Source: Chthoniobacterales bacterium (GTDB lineage: Bacteria > Verrucomicrobiota > Verrucomicrobiia > Chthoniobacterales > JACTMZ01). From it: 32,385 bases of DNA. Below the pieces are notes generated by a model that saw only the letters and a program-made list of their open reading frames with translations, did no database searches and was not told where the DNA came from. Made by a program: the position numbers and the translations under genes. The stretch lies in the NCBI GenBank assembly GCA_014879535.1, contig JACSRX010000050.1, positions 1 through 32,385 of the forward strand, in the 5' to 3' direction. This document shows positions 5,605-31,205 of this stretch, piece after piece (the stretch's first letter is position 1; every line of letters starts with the position of its first letter).

Positions 5605-8600
5605 TCAGGCCGGGGTGTCGTTCGGCTTTTCCGTCTCCGGCGCGGGTTCGGGGGCGGCGCCCGGCTTGGATCCGGACAGCTTCTCGACCGCGTAGAATGT
5701 CACGGGGATGATGAAGATGGCGAACAGCGTGGCGGCCAGCATGCCGCCGATGACGGCGGTGCCCATCGTCTGCCGCGAGATCGCGCCGGACCCGGTGGCC
5801 ATCCACAGCGGCACGCAGCCGAGGATGAAGGCGAAGGCCGTCATCAGGATCGGACGCAGCCGCACCCGCGCCCCGGCAAGCGCGGCGTCGTAGAGGTTCT
5901 TCCCGCCCTCGTATTCCGACTTGCAGAACTCGACGATGAGGATGGCGTTCTTGGCCGCCAGGCCGATGAGCATGATCAGGCCGATCTGTGCATAGACATT
6001 GTTCTCCATCGACCGTCCCCACAGCGCGAAGAACGCACCGAACACCGCGATCGGCGTGCCGAGGAGCACGCTGAACGGAAGCGACCAGCTCTCGTATTGC
6101 GCGGCGAGGATGAGGAAGACGAAGACCAGCGCGAGCGCGAAGATGACGACCGGGGACACACCCTCGGCGGCCTGCTTTTCCTGGAAGGACATGCCGAGGT
6201 AGTTGTAGCCCATTTCCTTCGGCATCGTCTGGGCGAAGACCTCCTCGAGCGCCTGCATGGCCTGCATCGAGCTGAACCCGGGCGCGGCATTGGCATTGAT
6301 CTGCGCCGAGCGATACATGTTGAAGCGCATCGTGAATTCCGGCCCGAACCGCTGCTCGGTCGTGATGAGGGCCGAAAGCGGGACCGAAGCGCCGTTGCGG
6401 TTGCGGACGAAGAACTGTCCCGCCTTCTCGATGACATTGCGGAACTCGCTGGAGGCCTGAACGTAAACCTGCCACTGCAGGCCGAATCGGTTGAAATAGT
6501 TCACCATCGTGCCGCCGAGGAAGGTCTGCAGCGTGTTGTAGGCGCTGTCGATCGGGACGCCCTGCGTCATGGCCATCTCGCGGTCCACATCCAGCCGGAT
6601 CTGGGGCACGGAGGGCAGCAGCGTCGTGTTGATGCGCTCCAGCTCGGGGCGCTTGGCGGCGGCCTCCATGAAGGTCTTCGTGTTCTCCGCGAGGAACTCC
6701 ACCGTGCTGCCGCTGCGGTCCTGCAGGATGAAGTTCACGCCGCCCGAGGTGCCGACGCCGGGGATGGCGGGCGGCGAGAATGCGAAGGCCACCCCGCCGG
6801 GAAGCGCCATGAGCTGCGCATTGATGCGGCGCATGATCACGTCGTATTGCGTCTCAGGCGTCGTGCGTTCGTCCCACGGCTTGAGGGTCACGAAGAAGAA
6901 GCCGTTGTAGGTCGTCTGCACCTGGCTGAGCAGGTTGAAGCCGACGATGGTCGTCACATACTCGACACCCGGCGTGGCCATCATGATCTTCTCGATCTCG
7001 CGGCACACATCGCTGGTGCGCTCGAAGGACGAGGCGTCCGGAAGCTGGACCCCCGCGTAGAAATACCCCTGATCCTCCTCGGGCAGGAACGAAGGCGGCA
7101 GCTTGTCCCCGAAGAAGAGCGCCAGCCCGGCCATGATCCCGAGGAACCCGAAGCTGAGCACGATCTTGCGGATCGCCGCACCGCAGATGCGCACGTAGTT
7201 GTCGGTCGCGCGGCCGAACATGCGGTTGAACCACGCGTAAAAGGCGCCAAGCGGCCCGCGGGATTCGCCTTTCGGCCGCAGGATCAGCGCCGCCAGGGCC
7301 GGGCTGAGCGTGAGCGCGTTGAAGGCCGAGATGCAGACCGAGATCGCGATGGTCACCGCGAACTGCTGGTAAAGGCTCCCCGTGATGCCGGGGATGAAGA
7401 TGGTCGGGATGAAGACCGAGGACAGCACCAGCGCGATGGCCACGACCGGGCCGGACACCTCCCGCATGGCCTTGAGCGTCGCGTCGCGCGGCGTCATTCC
7501 CTGCTCGATGTGGTGCTCGACCGCTTCGACCACCACGATGGCGTCGTCCACGACGAGGCCGATGGCGAGCACGAGGCCGAAGAGCGAAAGCGTGTTGATG
7601 GAAAAGCCCACCATCGGGAAGAGGGCGAACGTCCCGATGAGGGACACCGGCACCGCAAGCAGCGGGATCATGGTCGCGCGCCAGCCCTGCAGGAAGATGA
7701 AGACGACGATGATGACGAGCAGCATCGCCTCGAAGAGCGTCTTGACGATTTCCTCGATGCCGGCGGTCACCGCCTTCGTGGTGTCGAGCGACTCGACATA
7801 CTCGAGGCCCGGAGGGAAGCGCCCGGAAAGGTCGCGCATGAGCTTCTTCGCCCCCTCGGCGGCATCGAGCGCGTTCGAACCGGGGAGCTGGTAGCAGGCA
7901 ACGACGGCCGCGGGTTTCCCGTCGAAACGGCCCTGCAGGTTGTAGTTCTGCGCGCCAAGGTCGATCTTCGCGACATCCTTGAGCAGGAGGGTCGAACCGT
8001 CTGGGTTCGCCCGCACGATGATGTTGCCGAACTCCTCGACCGTGGTCAGGTAACCCTGGGTGATGACCGTGTAGGCGAATTCCTGTCCCGGCGGGATCGG
8101 CGGCGCGCCGACTTTGCCTGCGGGGTTGACGCGGTTCTGCGCGCGCACGGCGGAGATGATCTCGTCGGTGGTGACATCCAGCTTGGCCAACTGGTCCGGA
8201 CGCACCCAGATGCGCATCGCGTATTGGCCCGCACCGAAAATCTGCACCTGCGAGATGCCGGCGATGCGCCCCAGCTCGTTGTTGATGTTGATGTAGGCGT
8301 AGTTGGCCAGGAACGTCGCGTCGAACTCCCCGGTCGGCGAGTAGAGCGCGAACAAAACCAGCGGCGCGGACGAGCTTTTCTGCACGGTCACGCCGAAGTT
8401 GCTCACCGCGGAGGGCAGCTGCGCCACCGCCTGTCCCTGCCGCATCTGCGTGAGGATCTGGTCCGTCGTCGCGTCGGTCTCCACGCCGAAGAAGACGTTG
8501 AGCGTCATCTGGCCGTTGTTGGCGTTGACGGAATACATGTATTCCATGTTGTCCACACCGTTGACCTGCTGCTCGATGGGGGTGGCGACGGATTCCTCGA

Positions 8601-24530: not shown

Positions 24531-26096
24531 ATGAATCCCGTGGCGTTCATCAGCTACTGTCGCGAAGACAAGGCGGTCGCCGAGGCGGTGGTGGCCGGGT
24601 TGGAGGCGAACGGGATCCCCTGCTGGATCGCCCCGCGCAATGTCCGCCCCGGCGAGAATTGGGGCGGTTCGATCATCAAGGCCATCACCAACGCGAAGGT
24701 CATGGTGCTGGTCTTCTCGCAGCACACGAACAACTCGCCGCATGTGATGAATGAAATCGAGCGTGCCGTGTCGCGGCGCGTGACGATCATCCCCTTCCGC
24801 CTCCAGGATGTGAAACCCTCCGAGGACCTGGAACTGTTCATCAGCAGTTGCCATTGGCTCGATGCGCTCACCCCGCCGCTCGACGCCCACGTGGCCGATC
24901 TGGTCCGCGCCGTCCAAGGCGTGCTCGGCATCGAGTTCTCGGGCGCCGCGGACATCCCGGCAACCACCGTTCCCGCGGCGCCGGTCCAGACCGCGCCCCC
25001 GAAAACGTCCAAGACCCCGCTGCTGTTGGGCGCCGCCGTGGTGATCGTCCTCGTTGCCGCCGCGGCGCTTTATCATTTTTCGCGCGGCTCGGACGCAACA
25101 CCGCCCCAAGAGAATGCCTCCCCCGCAGTGGCGGCAGCCGACAACGCGGAGGTGGAAGCAAGGCCGACCGCGGAAGCCGAGGCACCGGAAGCGACCCCGC
25201 TTGATCCCCTCGCCGCAGCAAAGGATCTCGAGGACAGGCAGGATTTTGTCGGCGCCCTTGCCGCCTACGCCGACCTGCTGGCCGCCGACCCCGGGAACCC
25301 CGACCTCCGCCTCCGCGCGGAAAATGTGATCTCCCGCCTGCTCGAGGATGGCAATGTTTCGGACACGGACGGACGGCTTGGGGGTTCCACGCGCAAGCTT
25401 GCGGATGCCAACCTTGCCGCCGCCCAGAACTTCCTCGGCATCCAACTCCGCAAGTCCAATCCCGAGGAAAGCCTGGTGTTCTTCAAGAAGGCCGCCGCAC
25501 AGGGGATGCCCCGCGCCATGGCCGAAGTCGGATTGATGCTCTCGAACGGGGACGGTGCGCCGATGGATCTGACCGAGGCCGCCGCATGGCTGAAAAAGTC
25601 CGCCGAGGCCGGGTCGACCGACGGGATGTTGCTCTACGCGGAATGCCTGCTCGGGGGCAAGGGCGTGCCGGTCAACGAGGCGGAGGCCGCCACGCTCTAC
25701 ACGCAGGCTGCGGCACTGGGAAATCTCGGGGCAAAGATGCACCTCGCACGGATGTATCAAAAGGGCATCGGCATGCCGGCTCCCGACCCCAAGGAGGCCT
25801 TCCGGCTTTACCAAGAGGCGGCCGACCAAGGATATGTCGAGGCCCAAGGACGCTTGGGTGCCATGTATATGTCGGGCGAAGCCGGCGAGGCGGACCGTGA
25901 AAAGGCCGTCCAGCTCTGGCAGGACGGCGCGAGGAAGGACGATGCCGTGTGCATGCTTTTCTACGCCATGGCGCTGGAAAACGGCGACGCCGGCCCGCCG
26001 AACCGGGACGAGGCCTCGGTCTGGTATCAACGGGCCGCCCGCAAGGGCAATGCCGACGCCGTGAGATGGTGCGTGGACAACAAGATCAGCTTTTGA
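24531..26096 (+). CDS. TIR domain-transmembrane-Sel1 repeat protein
   Basis: This 521-residue protein has a TIR_2-type TIR domain at residues about 3-130: 'VAFISYCREDKAVAEAVVAG', 'GIPCWIAPRNVRPGENWGGS', 'VMVLVFSQHTNNSP', then 'NEIERAV'. Glu75 is the likely equivalent of the TIR NADase glutamate, and 'HWLDALTPPL' closes the domain. A membrane helix at about 163-181 places the TIR domain in the cytoplasm and the rest outside. After a Pro/Ala/Glu-rich linker come about six Sel1-like repeats (298-515), with units such as 'YQEAADQGYVEAQGRLGAMY'. TIR domains cleave NAD+ or act as scaffolds, and Sel1 repeats bind partners. It leads a four-gene co-directional cluster. Confidence 0.88.
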   Translation: MNPVAFISYCREDKAVAEAVVAGLEANGIPCWIAPRNVRPGENWGGSIIKAITNAKVMVLVFSQHTNNSPHVMNEIERAVSRRVTIIPFRLQDVKPSEDLELFISSCHWLDALTPPLDAHVADLVRAVQGVLGIEFSGAADIPATTVPAAPVQTAPPKTSKTPLLLGAAVVIVLVAAAALYHFSRGSDATPPQENASPAVAAADNAEVEARPTAEAEAPEATPLDPLAAAKDLEDRQDFVGALAAYADLLAADPGNPDLRLRAENVISRLLEDGNVSDTDGRLGGSTRKLADANLAAAQNFLGIQLRKSNPEESLVFFKKAAAQGMPRAMAEVGLMLSNGDGAPMDLTEAAAWLKKSAEAGSTDGMLLYAECLLGGKGVPVNEAEAATLYTQAAALGNLGAKMHLARMYQKGIGMPAPDPKEAFRLYQEAADQGYVEAQGRLGAMYMSGEAGEADREKAVQLWQDGARKDDAVCMLFYAMALENGDAGPPNRDEASVWYQRAARKGNADAVRWCVDNKISF

Positions 26097-26149
26097 CTTG
26101 ACCGGCCCCCGTCTCTGGCGCGGGTATGGAGACCTTGACCCCAGATATC

Positions 26150-26698
26150 ATGCAACACTCAAAACCCCTTTCACTCCTGTTGGCCGCCGGTCTGCTCACC
26201 TCCGGTTGCCAGAACATGCAACCCGGCGAGAACGCCGCTGTTTTCGGCGGGTTGGGCGCCGCGGTGACAGGGATCGCGTTGGGAGCCGCCGGCGTGGATC
26301 CCGCCATAACGATCCCCGTGACCGCAGGCGCGGGGCTGGTCGCAGGAGCCGGCGCCTACATCATTTCCAAGAGCCAGGCAAACGCCCAACAGCGGAAGAT
26401 CGCGGAAGCCAACGCGCAGGCGGCCGTGGCGAAAATGGAAGCACAGAAGAAAAAGGCGGCCGCAAGCTCCTCATCGCGGACAACGAAATCCGCGAAAAAG
26501 CCCCGCTTCATCGCCGTGGACACCGTCGCCTCCAAGGAAAGCCCGAAGGGTTCGTCCCAAGTCATGGTCTATGACACAAAGACCAACCAGATCGTCGGCA
26601 ACAATGTCTACAATATCGGAGAAAAGCCCAAAGTCGGCTCGAATACCAGCTACGACACCATGACGGCGCAATACGTCGGCACGGGCCGGAGCCTGTGA
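26150..26698 (+). CDS. lipoprotein with glycine-zipper-like segment, unknown function
   Basis: This 182-residue protein has a lipoprotein signal: a hydrophobic segment 'PLSLLLAAGLLTSGC' with the lipobox LTSGC. A Gly/Ala-rich stretch follows ('AVFGGLGAAVTGIALGAAGV' and 'TAGAGLVAGAGAYIISKSQA'), resembling a glycine-zipper membrane region. Next is an Ala/Lys-rich helix and a C-terminal domain with repeated 'VYDTKTNQIVGNNVYNIGEK' and 'SYDTMTAQYVGTGRSL' elements. The ATG at 26150 was chosen for the lipobox; 26126 is an upstream alternative. It sits 53 bases after the TIR-Sel1 gene and 48 before the cyclase gene, so probably in the same unit. Function is unknown. Confidence 0.72.
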   Translation: MQHSKPLSLLLAAGLLTSGCQNMQPGENAAVFGGLGAAVTGIALGAAGVDPAITIPVTAGAGLVAGAGAYIISKSQANAQQRKIAEANAQAAVAKMEAQKKKAAASSSSRTTKSAKKPRFIAVDTVASKESPKGSSQVMVYDTKTNQIVGNNVYNIGEKPKVGSNTSYDTMTAQYVGTGRSL

Positions 26699-26746: not shown

Positions 26747-28843
26747 ATGCATGGCCGGCTGACGATGGACGCGCCTGACCAGCCACCGCGGTGGATGCCG
26801 CCGCCCGACACCTCGGCATCCGTCGAAATCCCGGATTTCGTCGCGGAGGCCGTCGAGCGCCTCGCGGAGAGGGTTCACAATCGCTGGGCGGAGAAACGGC
26901 TCGAGGAGGGCTGGCGCTGGGGGCCCGAACGCAGCGACCAACTCAAGACCACGCCGAACCTCGTCGCCTATGGGGAATTGTCCGAGAAGGACAAGGACCT
27001 CGACCGCGCCACCGCCCTCGCCACGATCCGGAACCTGTATCAGGAGGGGTTCCGCATTGTCGCCGCGGACACCCCCGTTGACGCGGGCGCTGACGACGCC
27101 GCGCTTGTTGAGGCCAAATTGGCCGCCCCGGAAGCGCTTCGCTTCGAAACTGTGGACGCGCTCTGGCGCGGATATCCCGCGGCCTTCTGGCAAGTCCATG
27201 CGGGTTTGGGCGCACGGCTCGCGAAAATCGCCTGCGATGCGGGGTGGCCCCTGCTCGCTTACGACATGGCCTCGAGTCTGCTCACGGGCGAGGCACCGCT
27301 GTCCCCCGCCGCGGAGGCAGGGGTGCGCCACATCGCCGTGCTTTCCCTCATGGAGGTCGGCGCGATCGAGCGGGCCGCCCAGGAGTTGGACAAGATCGGG
27401 GATGGAACCCCGGTCGACGCGGATCTCCACGGCCTCCGCGGACGTCTCGCCAAAATGCAGGGTCTCCGGGCAAAGACACCGGACGATGCCTGTCGTTGGT
27501 TCGGAAGAGCCCGCGAAATTTACGGTGCCGCCTACGCCACATCCCTGGGCCGCTTCCGTCAACAGGGGAGCAGGAGTGCAGGCGAAGATGCCTATTACCT
27601 CGGCATCAACGCCGCCTCACTCGCCGCATGGTCGGGACACCGGGAGGAGGCGCGCCGGCTCGCCGCGGAAGTCCTCGAGATCTGCCGCAAAGTCACCGCC
27701 TTGTCTGCGCAGGACGAACCCCAACCGTGGCTTCAGGCGACCCGCGGCGAAGCATGCCTCCTCCTCGGGGAGTATTCCGAGGCGGAAGCGGCCTACCGCG
27801 GGGCGGCGGAGGCACTCTCCGGCCGCTGGCGCGCCCTCCAGTCCATGAGGCGCCAAGCCATGGAAACCGCCGCAAGGACCGGCGGTCCCGTGCAGGCCGT
27901 GGACGGCTGGTTCAAACGCCCCGCGATGCTGATCGCGGGTCTGGGGCGCCGGCCGGTGTCTTGCAGCTCGACGGGATCCTTTGTCTTCTATTACCTCCGT
28001 GAGCCATCCCAACTTGCGGAGGCCGAGGAACTGGCACGCGATTGTTCGGAGCTGCACCTGTGCTTCGAGGCGCCGCTGGCTTCATTCCGGGCAGCCTGCG
28101 GCGAGGAGGATCTGGTCCGGCTTGATTCGCTGCTCGCCCGCGCAACGCGTCTCCACGGAGCGGAGGATCCGCAGGTGGCCGGCGAGAAGCTCGAACCATC
28201 CATGGTGCATCTGCTCTTCCGGGGAGCATGCCTGCTCAGGGGTCAGGAGTTGGATCTGGAGACGGGACCGGCCTCAACACCGGAGGATGAGGAGCTCATG
28301 ACCGGCACGCGGGCGCCGTTCCGCGCCATCGTGTGCGCCGACGTCAAGGGGTTCAGCCGCCTCGACTCCCGAGGTTTGGAGATCTTTTGCAGCGAGCTGC
28401 TCGGGATGGTCGGAAAAATCGCCGATCGCTTCCGCAGCAACGCGCTTGTCCTGAAGACGGCCGGCGATGGCATTTTCGCGGTATTCCGCGACTTGGACTC
28501 CGCCGTCAATTTCAGTCTCGCGCTGCGCGACGGCGTTGCCTCGGTCGATTGGACCTCGCGCGGACTTCCCGACAATCTGGGCATCCGTATCTCGCTGGAT
28601 GCAGGACCGGTGCTGGAATTCAACGACCCGGTGACGGGCCGTCTTGATGTCGCGGGACGCATGGTGAACCGGGCCGCCCGCATCGAGCCGATCACGCCGG
28701 TGAACCACGTCTATGCGAGCCGCACGGCCGCTTCGCTCGCGCTGTCTCTGGGGCTTCCCGGGGTGCGCTTCGAATACGCCGGGGAGACGCCGCTTCCCAA
28801 GGGCTTCGGCGCCTTCCCCCTCTACCACGTGGCCTCCGCCTGA
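26747..28843 (+). CDS. RyR domain-DUF4071-class III nucleotidyl cyclase protein
   Basis: This 698-residue soluble protein has three parts. Residues about 35-105 form a RyR (ryanodine-receptor-like) domain, with 'VHNRWAEKRLEEGWRWGPER' and 'LVAYGELSEKDKDLDRA'. Residues about 140-400 fit DUF4071/TRAFs-binding helical repeats, with 'DAYYLGINAASLAAWSGHRE' and a 'RGEACLLLGEYSEAEAAYRG' repeat. The C-terminal 175 residues are a class III cyclase, with a metal Asp in 'IVCADVKGFSRLD', Lys and second Asp in 'VLKTAGDGIFAVF', and Asp, Asn and Arg in 'LDVAGRMVNRAARIEP'. The Lys/Asp pair matches adenylyl-cyclase specificity, so cAMP is the best prediction. ATG 26747 is uncertain; 26765 is a close alternative. 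It adjoins the transglutaminase-like gene by 6 bases. Confidence 0.82.
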   Translation: MHGRLTMDAPDQPPRWMPPPDTSASVEIPDFVAEAVERLAERVHNRWAEKRLEEGWRWGPERSDQLKTTPNLVAYGELSEKDKDLDRATALATIRNLYQEGFRIVAADTPVDAGADDAALVEAKLAAPEALRFETVDALWRGYPAAFWQVHAGLGARLAKIACDAGWPLLAYDMASSLLTGEAPLSPAAEAGVRHIAVLSLMEVGAIERAAQELDKIGDGTPVDADLHGLRGRLAKMQGLRAKTPDDACRWFGRAREIYGAAYATSLGRFRQQGSRSAGEDAYYLGINAASLAAWSGHREEARRLAAEVLEICRKVTALSAQDEPQPWLQATRGEACLLLGEYSEAEAAYRGAAEALSGRWRALQSMRRQAMETAARTGGPVQAVDGWFKRPAMLIAGLGRRPVSCSSTGSFVFYYLREPSQLAEAEELARDCSELHLCFEAPLASFRAACGEEDLVRLDSLLARATRLHGAEDPQVAGEKLEPSMVHLLFRGACLLRGQELDLETGPASTPEDEELMTGTRAPFRAIVCADVKGFSRLDSRGLEIFCSELLGMVGKIADRFRSNALVLKTAGDGIFAVFRDLDSAVNFSLALRDGVASVDWTSRGLPDNLGIRISLDAGPVLEFNDPVTGRLDVAGRMVNRAARIEPITPVNHVYASRTAASLALSLGLPGVRFEYAGETPLPKGFGAFPLYHVASA

Positions 28844-28849
28844 ACGCTG

Positions 28850-29476
28850 ATGACCGGGCTCACCCCGAAGGAAACCGCCGTCCTGCGGGGGCTCTCGACG
28901 CCGCGCAAGATCCAGGACTTTCTCGACCGGCTGCCGGTCAACTACGAGAAAAACGGCGAAACGCATTTTTCCCCGCGGCGGGTGTTGCAAGAGCGCAAGG
29001 CGCATTGCATCGAGGGCGCGCTGCTCGCCGCGGCGGCCCTCTGGTTCCATGGCGGGAAACCCCTCCTCCTCGACCTCAAGACGAAGCTGCTCGACGACGA
29101 ACATGTCGTCGCACTCTTCCGGGAGAACGGCTACTGGGGCGCGATCTCCAAGACGAACCACGCAGTCGTCCGCTACCGCGATCCCATCTACCGCACGATC
29201 CGCGAGCTGGCCCTCTCGTATTTCCACGAATACTTCCGCGATCATGACGGCGTGAAGACGCTCGTTTCCTACTCGCGGCCATTCGACCTTCGGACCTTGG
29301 GTGATGCGTGGATCACCAGCAGCGAGGATCTCTGGGATCTCGACGACCGGCTCAATGCCGTGCCGCACTTCCCCGTCGTTCCCGCGGCGAATGCACGCCT
29401 CATCCGCCGCGCCACGATCTTCGAACGCCGCGTGATCAATGTCCGCGAATGGTCGGCGGACGATCCGCGGACCTGA
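28850..29476 (+). CDS. transglutaminase-like protein
   Basis: This 208-residue soluble protein starts 6 bases after the cyclase stop. It has 'QERKAHCIEGALLAAAALWF' with Cys53, 'LDDEHVVALFRENGYWGAIS' with His85, and 'KTNHAVVRYRDPIYRTIREL' after it. The Cys-then-His spacing and the surrounding pattern fit a transglutaminase-like (papain-fold) cysteine enzyme, which could deamidate, cross-link or cleave peptides. I recognise the pattern from uncharacterised bacterial proteins but not a named family. No signal peptide is present. The tight spacing suggests translational coupling with the cyclase. The gene converges with alanine dehydrogenase. Confidence 0.72.
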   Translation: MTGLTPKETAVLRGLSTPRKIQDFLDRLPVNYEKNGETHFSPRRVLQERKAHCIEGALLAAAALWFHGGKPLLLDLKTKLLDDEHVVALFRENGYWGAISKTNHAVVRYRDPIYRTIRELALSYFHEYFRDHDGVKTLVSYSRPFDLRTLGDAWITSSEDLWDLDDRLNAVPHFPVVPAANARLIRRATIFERRVINVREWSADDPRT

Positions 29477-30661: not shown

Positions 30662-30949
30662 TCAGTTTTCCTCCTCCAACCGCTCGGCCAGCCACTGCTT
30701 GATCATGCTCTGGTAGTTCAGATAACGGGAGCGCGCCACGCGCTTGATGCGGGCAAGCATGCGGGGATCGAACCGGAGGGTCACCGTGGCGGACTCGCGG
30801 GCGTCGCCCTTGAGGATGGATGCGTTCATCAGCTTCGGATCGAGGCTGTGCTGCAGCCAGAATGCGGACTCGCCGGTCTCGGCGTCAAAGTCCGGAACCT
30901 CGGACCACGCACGGAGCGTGCGCAGATCATCACCGCCGCTATTCGTCAT
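30662..30949 (-). CDS. BrnA/CopG-like antitoxin
   Basis: This 95-residue protein has an acidic N-terminal half and a C-terminal ribbon-helix-helix-like segment: 'SATVTLRFDPRMLARIKRVA', followed by 'YLNYQSMIKQWLAERL'. This is typical of BrnA/CopG-type antitoxins, which bind DNA and neutralise the partner toxin. It starts 11 bases inside the upstream toxin gene, so the pair is cotranscribed with the toxin first. There are several family possibilities. The toxin identity makes BrnA the best call. Confidence 0.72.
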   Translation of the reverse strand: MTNSGGDDLRTLRAWSEVPDFDAETGESAFWLQHSLDPKLMNASILKGDARESATVTLRFDPRMLARIKRVARSRYLNYQSMIKQWLAERLEEEN

Positions 30950-31205
30950 TTTTGCGTTCGAAGAAGTTCTCCTCGTCCTTCGTCATCGGCCGTGCGGCGA
31001 TCACACGCAGGCTTTTGCCGTCGGTCCAGAAGACGCTGAAGATGCCGCGCCCGTCGGCCGAGCGTCCCAGGTTGAAATACCGCGCCTCGCCGTGCTCGAA
31101 ATCCGGGAGCAGGCGCAGGCTGAAGGGATCCTCGAAGGATTCCTCGATGGCCCGCGGGGTCAGCACCTTCAGGTCGAAGGGAGCGTCGAGCCAGTCGAAT
31201 TCCAT
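30939..31205 (-). CDS. BrnT-like toxin
   Basis: This 88-residue protein resembles BrnT toxins, which are RelE-fold ribonucleases. It has an N-terminal 'EFDWLDAP', a 'IEESFEDPFSLRLLPDFEHG' helix region, then 'RYFNLGRSADGRGIFSVFWT' and 'SLRVIAARPMTKDEENFFER', which match the core strand and the RxIsAR-type C-terminal segment. The usual 'KHGVsFeeA' helix is present only loosely, so it may be a divergent member. It lies upstream of and overlaps the antitoxin, as in brnTA loci. It is 22 bases downstream of the glyoxalase gene on the same strand. Confidence 0.7.
   Translation of the reverse strand: MEFDWLDAPFDLKVLTPRAIEESFEDPFSLRLLPDFEHGEARYFNLGRSADGRGIFSVFWTDGKSLRVIAARPMTKDEENFFERKNDE

Follow-up and report, generated by a model that had tools for sequence, protein, structure and literature searches.

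A RyR-TPR-S-cyclase protein encoded near a TIR gene in Chthoniobacterales and a possible relay between two nucleotide messengers

The gene at positions 26747 to 28843 (+ strand) of the window, the whole stretch of 32,385 nucleotides that was analysed, encodes a protein of 698 amino acids in which a RyR domain, a TPR-S scaffold, a Rossmann-like middle domain and a class III nucleotide cyclase follow one another. The only match to TIR_2 (PF13676) in the genome is a TIR-TM-Sel1 protein encoded two genes away, and this proximity suggests a relay between messengers in which the TIR product would be read by the RyR domain and the TPR-S scaffold and converted to cAMP. We give this two-messenger relay a probability of about one half. 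Phage RyR domains bind, and in one case cleave, both 2'cADPR and 3'cADPR made by TIR proteins (2026 preprint, PMC13232231), which makes the relay the best explanation. The fuller scheme, in which a bacterial NAD+-derived TIR messenger is read by RyR and turned into cAMP under the control of an envelope receptor, falls somewhat short of even odds. The preliminary description of this DNA had left the activating signal unnamed; the product of the neighbouring TIR protein is now a candidate for it. The features on which the argument is built are the following.

24531 to 26096, + strand: TIR-TM-Sel1 protein, 521 amino acids; TIR domain at residues 4-132, Glu75 encoded at 24753-24755 (Pfam, alignment)
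26126 to 26698, + strand: glycine-zipper lipoprotein, 190 amino acids, lipobox TSGC; pairs with the Sel1 protein
26747 to 28843, + strand: RyR-TPR-S-Rossmann-like-class III cyclase protein, 698 amino acids (open reading frame, Pfam, orthologues)
26798 to 27058, + strand: RyR domain (PF02026), residues 18-104 (Pfam E 7.4e-20, RyDEP spacing)
27089 to 27910, + strand: helical scaffold of TPR-S type, like the ASK1 central regulatory region, residues 115-388 (Pfam, relatives, fold)
27926 to 28261, + strand: Rossmann-like alpha/beta middle domain, residues about 394-505 (alignment A4, AF2 model)
28319 to 28834, + strand: class III nucleotide cyclase, residues 525-696, with canonical ATP-type residues D532, K570, D574, D634, N641 and R645
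28850 to 29476, + strand: 208-amino-acid protein, beginning 6 bp after the cyclase gene; missing from the other cassettes

Full-length orthologues of the cyclase protein were found in three other genomes (G003, G005 and G009), and the conservation of the reading frame at 51-54% identity along the entire length indicates that this is a real gene. The true start of translation may be 26765 or 26795, and no clear ribosome-binding site was seen upstream. The full-length form is present in 4 of the 11 genomes of the genus, which are also the only 4 among the 213 of the order Chthoniobacterales (phylum Verrucomicrobiota), and in another order (G513, with the more distant orthologue at L154). Two named relatives, both MAGs, likewise belong to Chthoniobacterales. 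The union of RyR, a TRAFs-binding-like scaffold and a cyclase in a single protein, as first proposed from the sequence, was borne out by Pfam, relatives, residues and structure. The TPR-S and cyclase matches are marginal in the 698-amino-acid protein itself and are backed by the last three of these. The AlphaFold (AF2) model has a mean pLDDT of 62, with a poor cyclase part that is uninformative about the active dimer, so statements about fold are confined to the TPR and RyR parts. RyR-TPR-S-cyclase proteins were not described in the literature searched, a search that did not extend to Burroughs and Aravind 2020 and is no proof of absence; among related papers, RyR is not mentioned in PMC7159879 and PMC9503650, and neither RyR nor TPR-S in PMC8195603.

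Analysis of the N-terminal region gave a strong RyR match (71.4 bits against a cut-off of 27.4, E 7.4e-20 in the Pfam search). It matches solved Bacteroides and animal RyR repeats in phmmer, and the corresponding part of the AlphaFold model matches the fold of 3nrt and relatives. In RyDEP, one of the phage RyR-domain defence evasion proteins, the ligand pocket is formed by H75, W78, H100 and D117 (PMC13232231). Mapping by residue spacing and the animal RyR repeat places H44, W47, Thr69 and D86 in the equivalent positions, with a spacing of 3/22/17 identical to that of RyDEP. Three of the four pocket residues are thus kept, and the equivalent of H100 is Thr in all four orthologues of the alignment; since H100 coordinates phosphates in RyDEP, the ligand may differ here. 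The shared features with RyDEP are the PF02026 domain and the equally spaced H, W and D pocket residues, whereas the protein of the window is host-encoded, is fused to an output enzyme and has one pocket residue changed.

The RyDEP catalytic pair H75/D117 is retained as H44/D86 at the same spacing, and it may be asked whether RyR acts as an eraser in cis, hydrolysing or sequestering the TIR product as a built-in timer while TPR-S alone senses it. TPR-S cyclases that lack RyR also adjoin TIR genes (L043, L108 and L114), so RyR is unnecessary for the link. However, cleavage of the signals was seen with none of the eight RyDEP homologues assayed, similar as they are in sequence, the phosphate-holding His is Thr here, and RyR is fused to several output enzymes, which fits sensing; we consider an eraser decidedly unlikely. 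RyR was joined to the TPR-S-cyclase family repeatedly: two lineages carry it fused at the N terminus, one clade of cyclase-RyR fusions has it at the C terminus (L044-L047, L050 and L096), and in L040 and L155 a separate RyR gene lies just upstream of the TPR-S-cyclase gene. Other RyR fusions in the order were a RelA/SpoT-SLOG-RyR protein (L102:8310-10859, - strand), a further nucleotide-messenger enzyme with RyR, adjoined by a TIR gene at 6081-7280 (+ strand) that is the sole TIR_2 match of G089, and TrkA_N-RyR proteins (L097:6860-8521, + strand; L104:2234-3907, - strand).

The scaffold identification was upheld in part by the profile searches. The RyR claim stood above its cut-off, TPR-S (PF20308, residues 188-292) reached 27.1 bits, just under the cut-off of 27.6, and the G003 orthologue exceeded it with 38.9 bits. 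The cut-off of PF13281 MAP3K_TRAF_bd, the family behind the 'TRAFs-binding' label of the preliminary description, is passed by the homologues L034 and L108. Residues 117-388 of the AlphaFold model have as best fold match 5ulm, the ASK1 central regulatory region (Z 18.2, rmsd 3.2 over 239 residues), a match that ties within 1 Z unit with other TPR proteins (LGN and RapI). The likeness to the ASK1 (MAP3K5) signalosome is a TPR central-regulatory fold ahead of a signalling enzyme, while here the output is a cyclase instead of a kinase and the sensor in front is RyR. The TPR-S scaffold was reportedly recognised by Burroughs and Aravind in 2020 (J Bacteriol) as ASK1-related and TIR-linked and is said to have been predicted there as a sensor of NAD+-derived signals. 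Both the ASK1-related TPR scaffold and the TIR linkage recur in the system of the window, which differs by the N-terminal RyR, by the ATP-type cyclase and by the two partners that complete the trio, an envelope TIR-Sel1 receptor and a lipoprotein.

The usual partners of TPR arrays are proteins, the RyR repeats of animals have adenine nucleotides, AMP-PCP for example, among their ligands, and the structures of RyDEP and bacterial RyR are dimers. The cyclase could therefore be regulated through its TPR part by partner proteins or membrane stress, with RyR as a dimerisation or ATP/ADP-sensing module unrelated to TIR. This explanation is unlikely, as it accounts neither for the repeated TIR linkage nor for locus L155, in which a RyR gene is grouped with TPR-S-cyclase and TIR genes.

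Between scaffold and cyclase lies a shortened version of an unnamed domain that is conserved in the TPR-S cyclases without RyR (alignment A4). The complete form, found between TPR-S and cyclase in L034:7660-8316 (+ strand) and relatives (alignment A6), is marked by GHMxDxPxR..PRFP..SAACGxDILFLEA..AVWDG..GGT, and neither Pfam nor the PDB gave a significant sequence match to the family of alignment A6. The AF2 model of the middle domain (m44982ac2b246, pLDDT 77.5) gave no clear fold match and only weak Rossmann-like ones. An assignment as SLOG was considered and is unproven, given the lack of significant Pfam or PDB matches and the weak fold matches, among them YpsA at Z 4.7.

The cyclase domain scored 20.6 bits with PF00211 (residues 528-682), against a cut-off of 21.9. 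The metal-binding Asp532 and Asp574 and the transition-state Asn641 and Arg645, all of which had been claimed at the outset, are present and invariant in the four orthologues, as are Lys570 and Asp634, the pair that selects adenine. The prediction of cAMP is thus supported at the residue level: given the canonical residues and the absence of any PADLOC model match at E 1 or less, PycC included, cAMP is predicted over a cyclic pyrimidine as the product of the protein of the window. The situation is different in related proteins of the same order outside the genus, both TPR-S cyclases without RyR and cyclase-RyR fusions. In these, Asn stands at position 570 in nearly all cases (motif NTWGD), position 634 mostly holds T, S, G or N and position 641 mostly Ser, with the metal Asp residues and Arg645 mostly retained. 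The L154 protein from another order has the NTWGD form as well. Since both residues for adenine selection (Lys and Asp), as well as the catalytic Asn, are replaced outside the genus, the prediction of cAMP is limited to the genus of the window. The NTWGD motif with altered Asp/Asn was recorded in the cyclase domains of L034, L037-L041, L043, L107-L111, L154-L157 and L161. These variant cyclases, which score faintly with the PADLOC model for PycC, likely make a changed nucleotide product, judging from their residues. In the cyclase tree the genus of the window forms one supported clade (99/99); the root is unsure owing to a long outgroup branch, so the canonical residues may be ancestral or regained.

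The TIR-Sel1, lipoprotein and cyclase genes form a run on the same strand with gaps of 29 and 48 bp, the cyclase gene being last. Glu75 of the TIR domain aligns with the catalytic glutamate of solved TIRs (WxxxE motif) and is invariant in three genomes, which makes it the candidate catalytic residue. The single hydrophobic segment of the protein (TM 162-180) has more K/R before than after it, and this charge distribution suggests a cytoplasmic TIR domain and periplasmic Sel1 repeats. The trio was found in three genomes of the genus (that of the window, G003 and G005), in rearranged form and with unshared flanking genes; in G005 the order is cyclase-TIR-lipoprotein. In G009 the cyclase is present and no TIR match was found in a MAG that is only 65% complete. 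The gene of the 208-amino-acid protein is possibly cotranscribed with the cyclase gene, and since the other cassettes lack it, this protein is probably not part of the system. Further downstream, a BrnT/BrnA-like toxin-antitoxin pair was seen at 30662-31205 (- strand). Members of the same lipoprotein family lie beside Ser/Thr kinase-Sel1 proteins with an N-terminal kinase (L117:6304-9291 and L118:6177-8351, both + strand). Sel1 protein and lipoprotein therefore seem to make up a receptor module on which kinase and TIR are interchangeable outputs.

The linkage between TIR and TPR-S-cyclase genes was also calculated across Chthoniobacterales. A TIR_2 gene was found within 4 kb at 8 of 27 TPR-S-cyclase loci, against 0.27 expected (Poisson P 6e-10), where the loci were taken from profile searches and the expectation from the number of TIRs in those genomes. 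Of these eight, the G095 locus was counted as a cyclase because its length and score almost equal those of G031 and G094, and the cyclase domain of G072 is decayed. With one locus per genus, 4 of 14 were linked, against 0.26 expected (P 1.6e-4). G000, G005 and G150 each have a single TIR_2 match, which in every case is the neighbour, and the remaining 19 loci have no close TIR. Outside the order, RyR, TPR-S-cyclase and TIR-TPR genes are successive in L155, and L156 and L157 have adjacent TIR genes. In L154:7186-14887 (- strand), the RyR-TPR-S-cyclase, nSTAND1-WD40-FGE and SIR2-TIR genes are consecutive on one strand, an immunity-like setting. An ordinary adenylate cyclase with accessory domains and a coincidental TIR neighbour would suit the mixed genome context, in which housekeeping genes such as those of alanine dehydrogenase and CrcB lie nearby, and the data come from MAGs only. 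The linkage statistics and the conservation of the trio despite rearrangement make such a coincidence extremely improbable.

The reverse order of events has also to be weighed, since cyclase-TIR pairs are known in Pycsar (PMC11224242) and the two genes are neighbours here: cAMP would then trigger the TIR protein as a NAD-depleting effector in the manner of PycTIR. Nevertheless, the TIR neighbour carries only a TM segment and Sel1 repeats and has no cNMP-binding domain, which disfavours this explanation; at other loci the partner TIR proteins have TPR repeats or SIR2 in place of cNMP-binding domains, and the cyclase does not match PycC. A downstream TIR is thus very unlikely. The system resembles Pycsar in that genes for a class III-type cyclase and for TIR proteins lie close together, and differs from it in the lack of a PycC match, in having residues of ATP type instead of pyrimidine type and in the proposed upstream position of TIR. 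No cNMP-binding effector (PycTM or PycTIR) was found among the neighbouring genes scanned, and membership in Pycsar was dropped on these grounds. Membership in Thoeris was likewise dropped: the TIR neighbour scores weakly with the ThsB models of PADLOC and no ThsA-like effector gene was found among the neighbours scanned. The proposed relay shares with Thoeris a TIR that would make an ADPR-type messenger activating a sensor protein, whereas here the output of the sensor is a cyclase and the TIR is membrane-anchored with Sel1 repeats.

In the relay as we propose it, an envelope-facing receptor made of periplasmic Sel1 repeats and the lipoprotein would turn on its own cytoplasmic TIR domain, which would convert NAD+ to an ADP-ribose-type messenger. 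This messenger would be bound by the RyR domain, probably with the TPR-S scaffold, and binding would bring two class III cyclase domains into an active head-to-tail dimer that makes cAMP from ATP. The receptors of the cAMP would be cNMP-binding proteins whose genes lie in other parts of the genome, as the trio cassette itself encodes no effector or cNMP receptor. The conservation of the trio, the TIR linkage, the repeated joining of RyR, the ASK1-like TPR and the intact catalytic residues favour the relay, while Thr69 in place of the phosphate His, G009 without TIR, the 19 of 27 unlinked loci and the missing effector in the cassette speak against it. Three matches to PF00027 (cNMP-binding) were found in the genome, one of them a patatin-like phospholipase. 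Within the genus this phospholipase occurs only in the three cassette genomes (L162:1333-3069, L163:6149-7882 and L164:743-2464, all + strand). Its gene shows no linkage to the cassette, and in G003 the nearby cyclase is another one, of CHASE2 type; as a cAMP effector the phospholipase is only a lead. As to purpose, an immune or cell-damage role appears likelier than a housekeeping one.

RyR is a module of animal calcium-release channels, and the direct control of animal ryanodine receptors by cyclic ADP-ribose is an old and debated question; that RyR domains of phages bind TIR products is a very recent finding. If the relay is true, a RyR domain of the host, not of a phage, would be a receptor for TIR products, and one nucleotide messenger would hand over to another. 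A RyR enzyme beside a TIR gene would offer a simple cAMP readout for ligand sensing by RyR, and the pair would be a testable instance of messenger-to-messenger conversion. Sensing of NAD-derived signals by TPR-S having already been predicted, our analysis suggests that the RyR-TPR-S-cyclase form is a variation on it, one in which a regulatory scaffold of the ASK1 type would be connected to nucleotide sensing.
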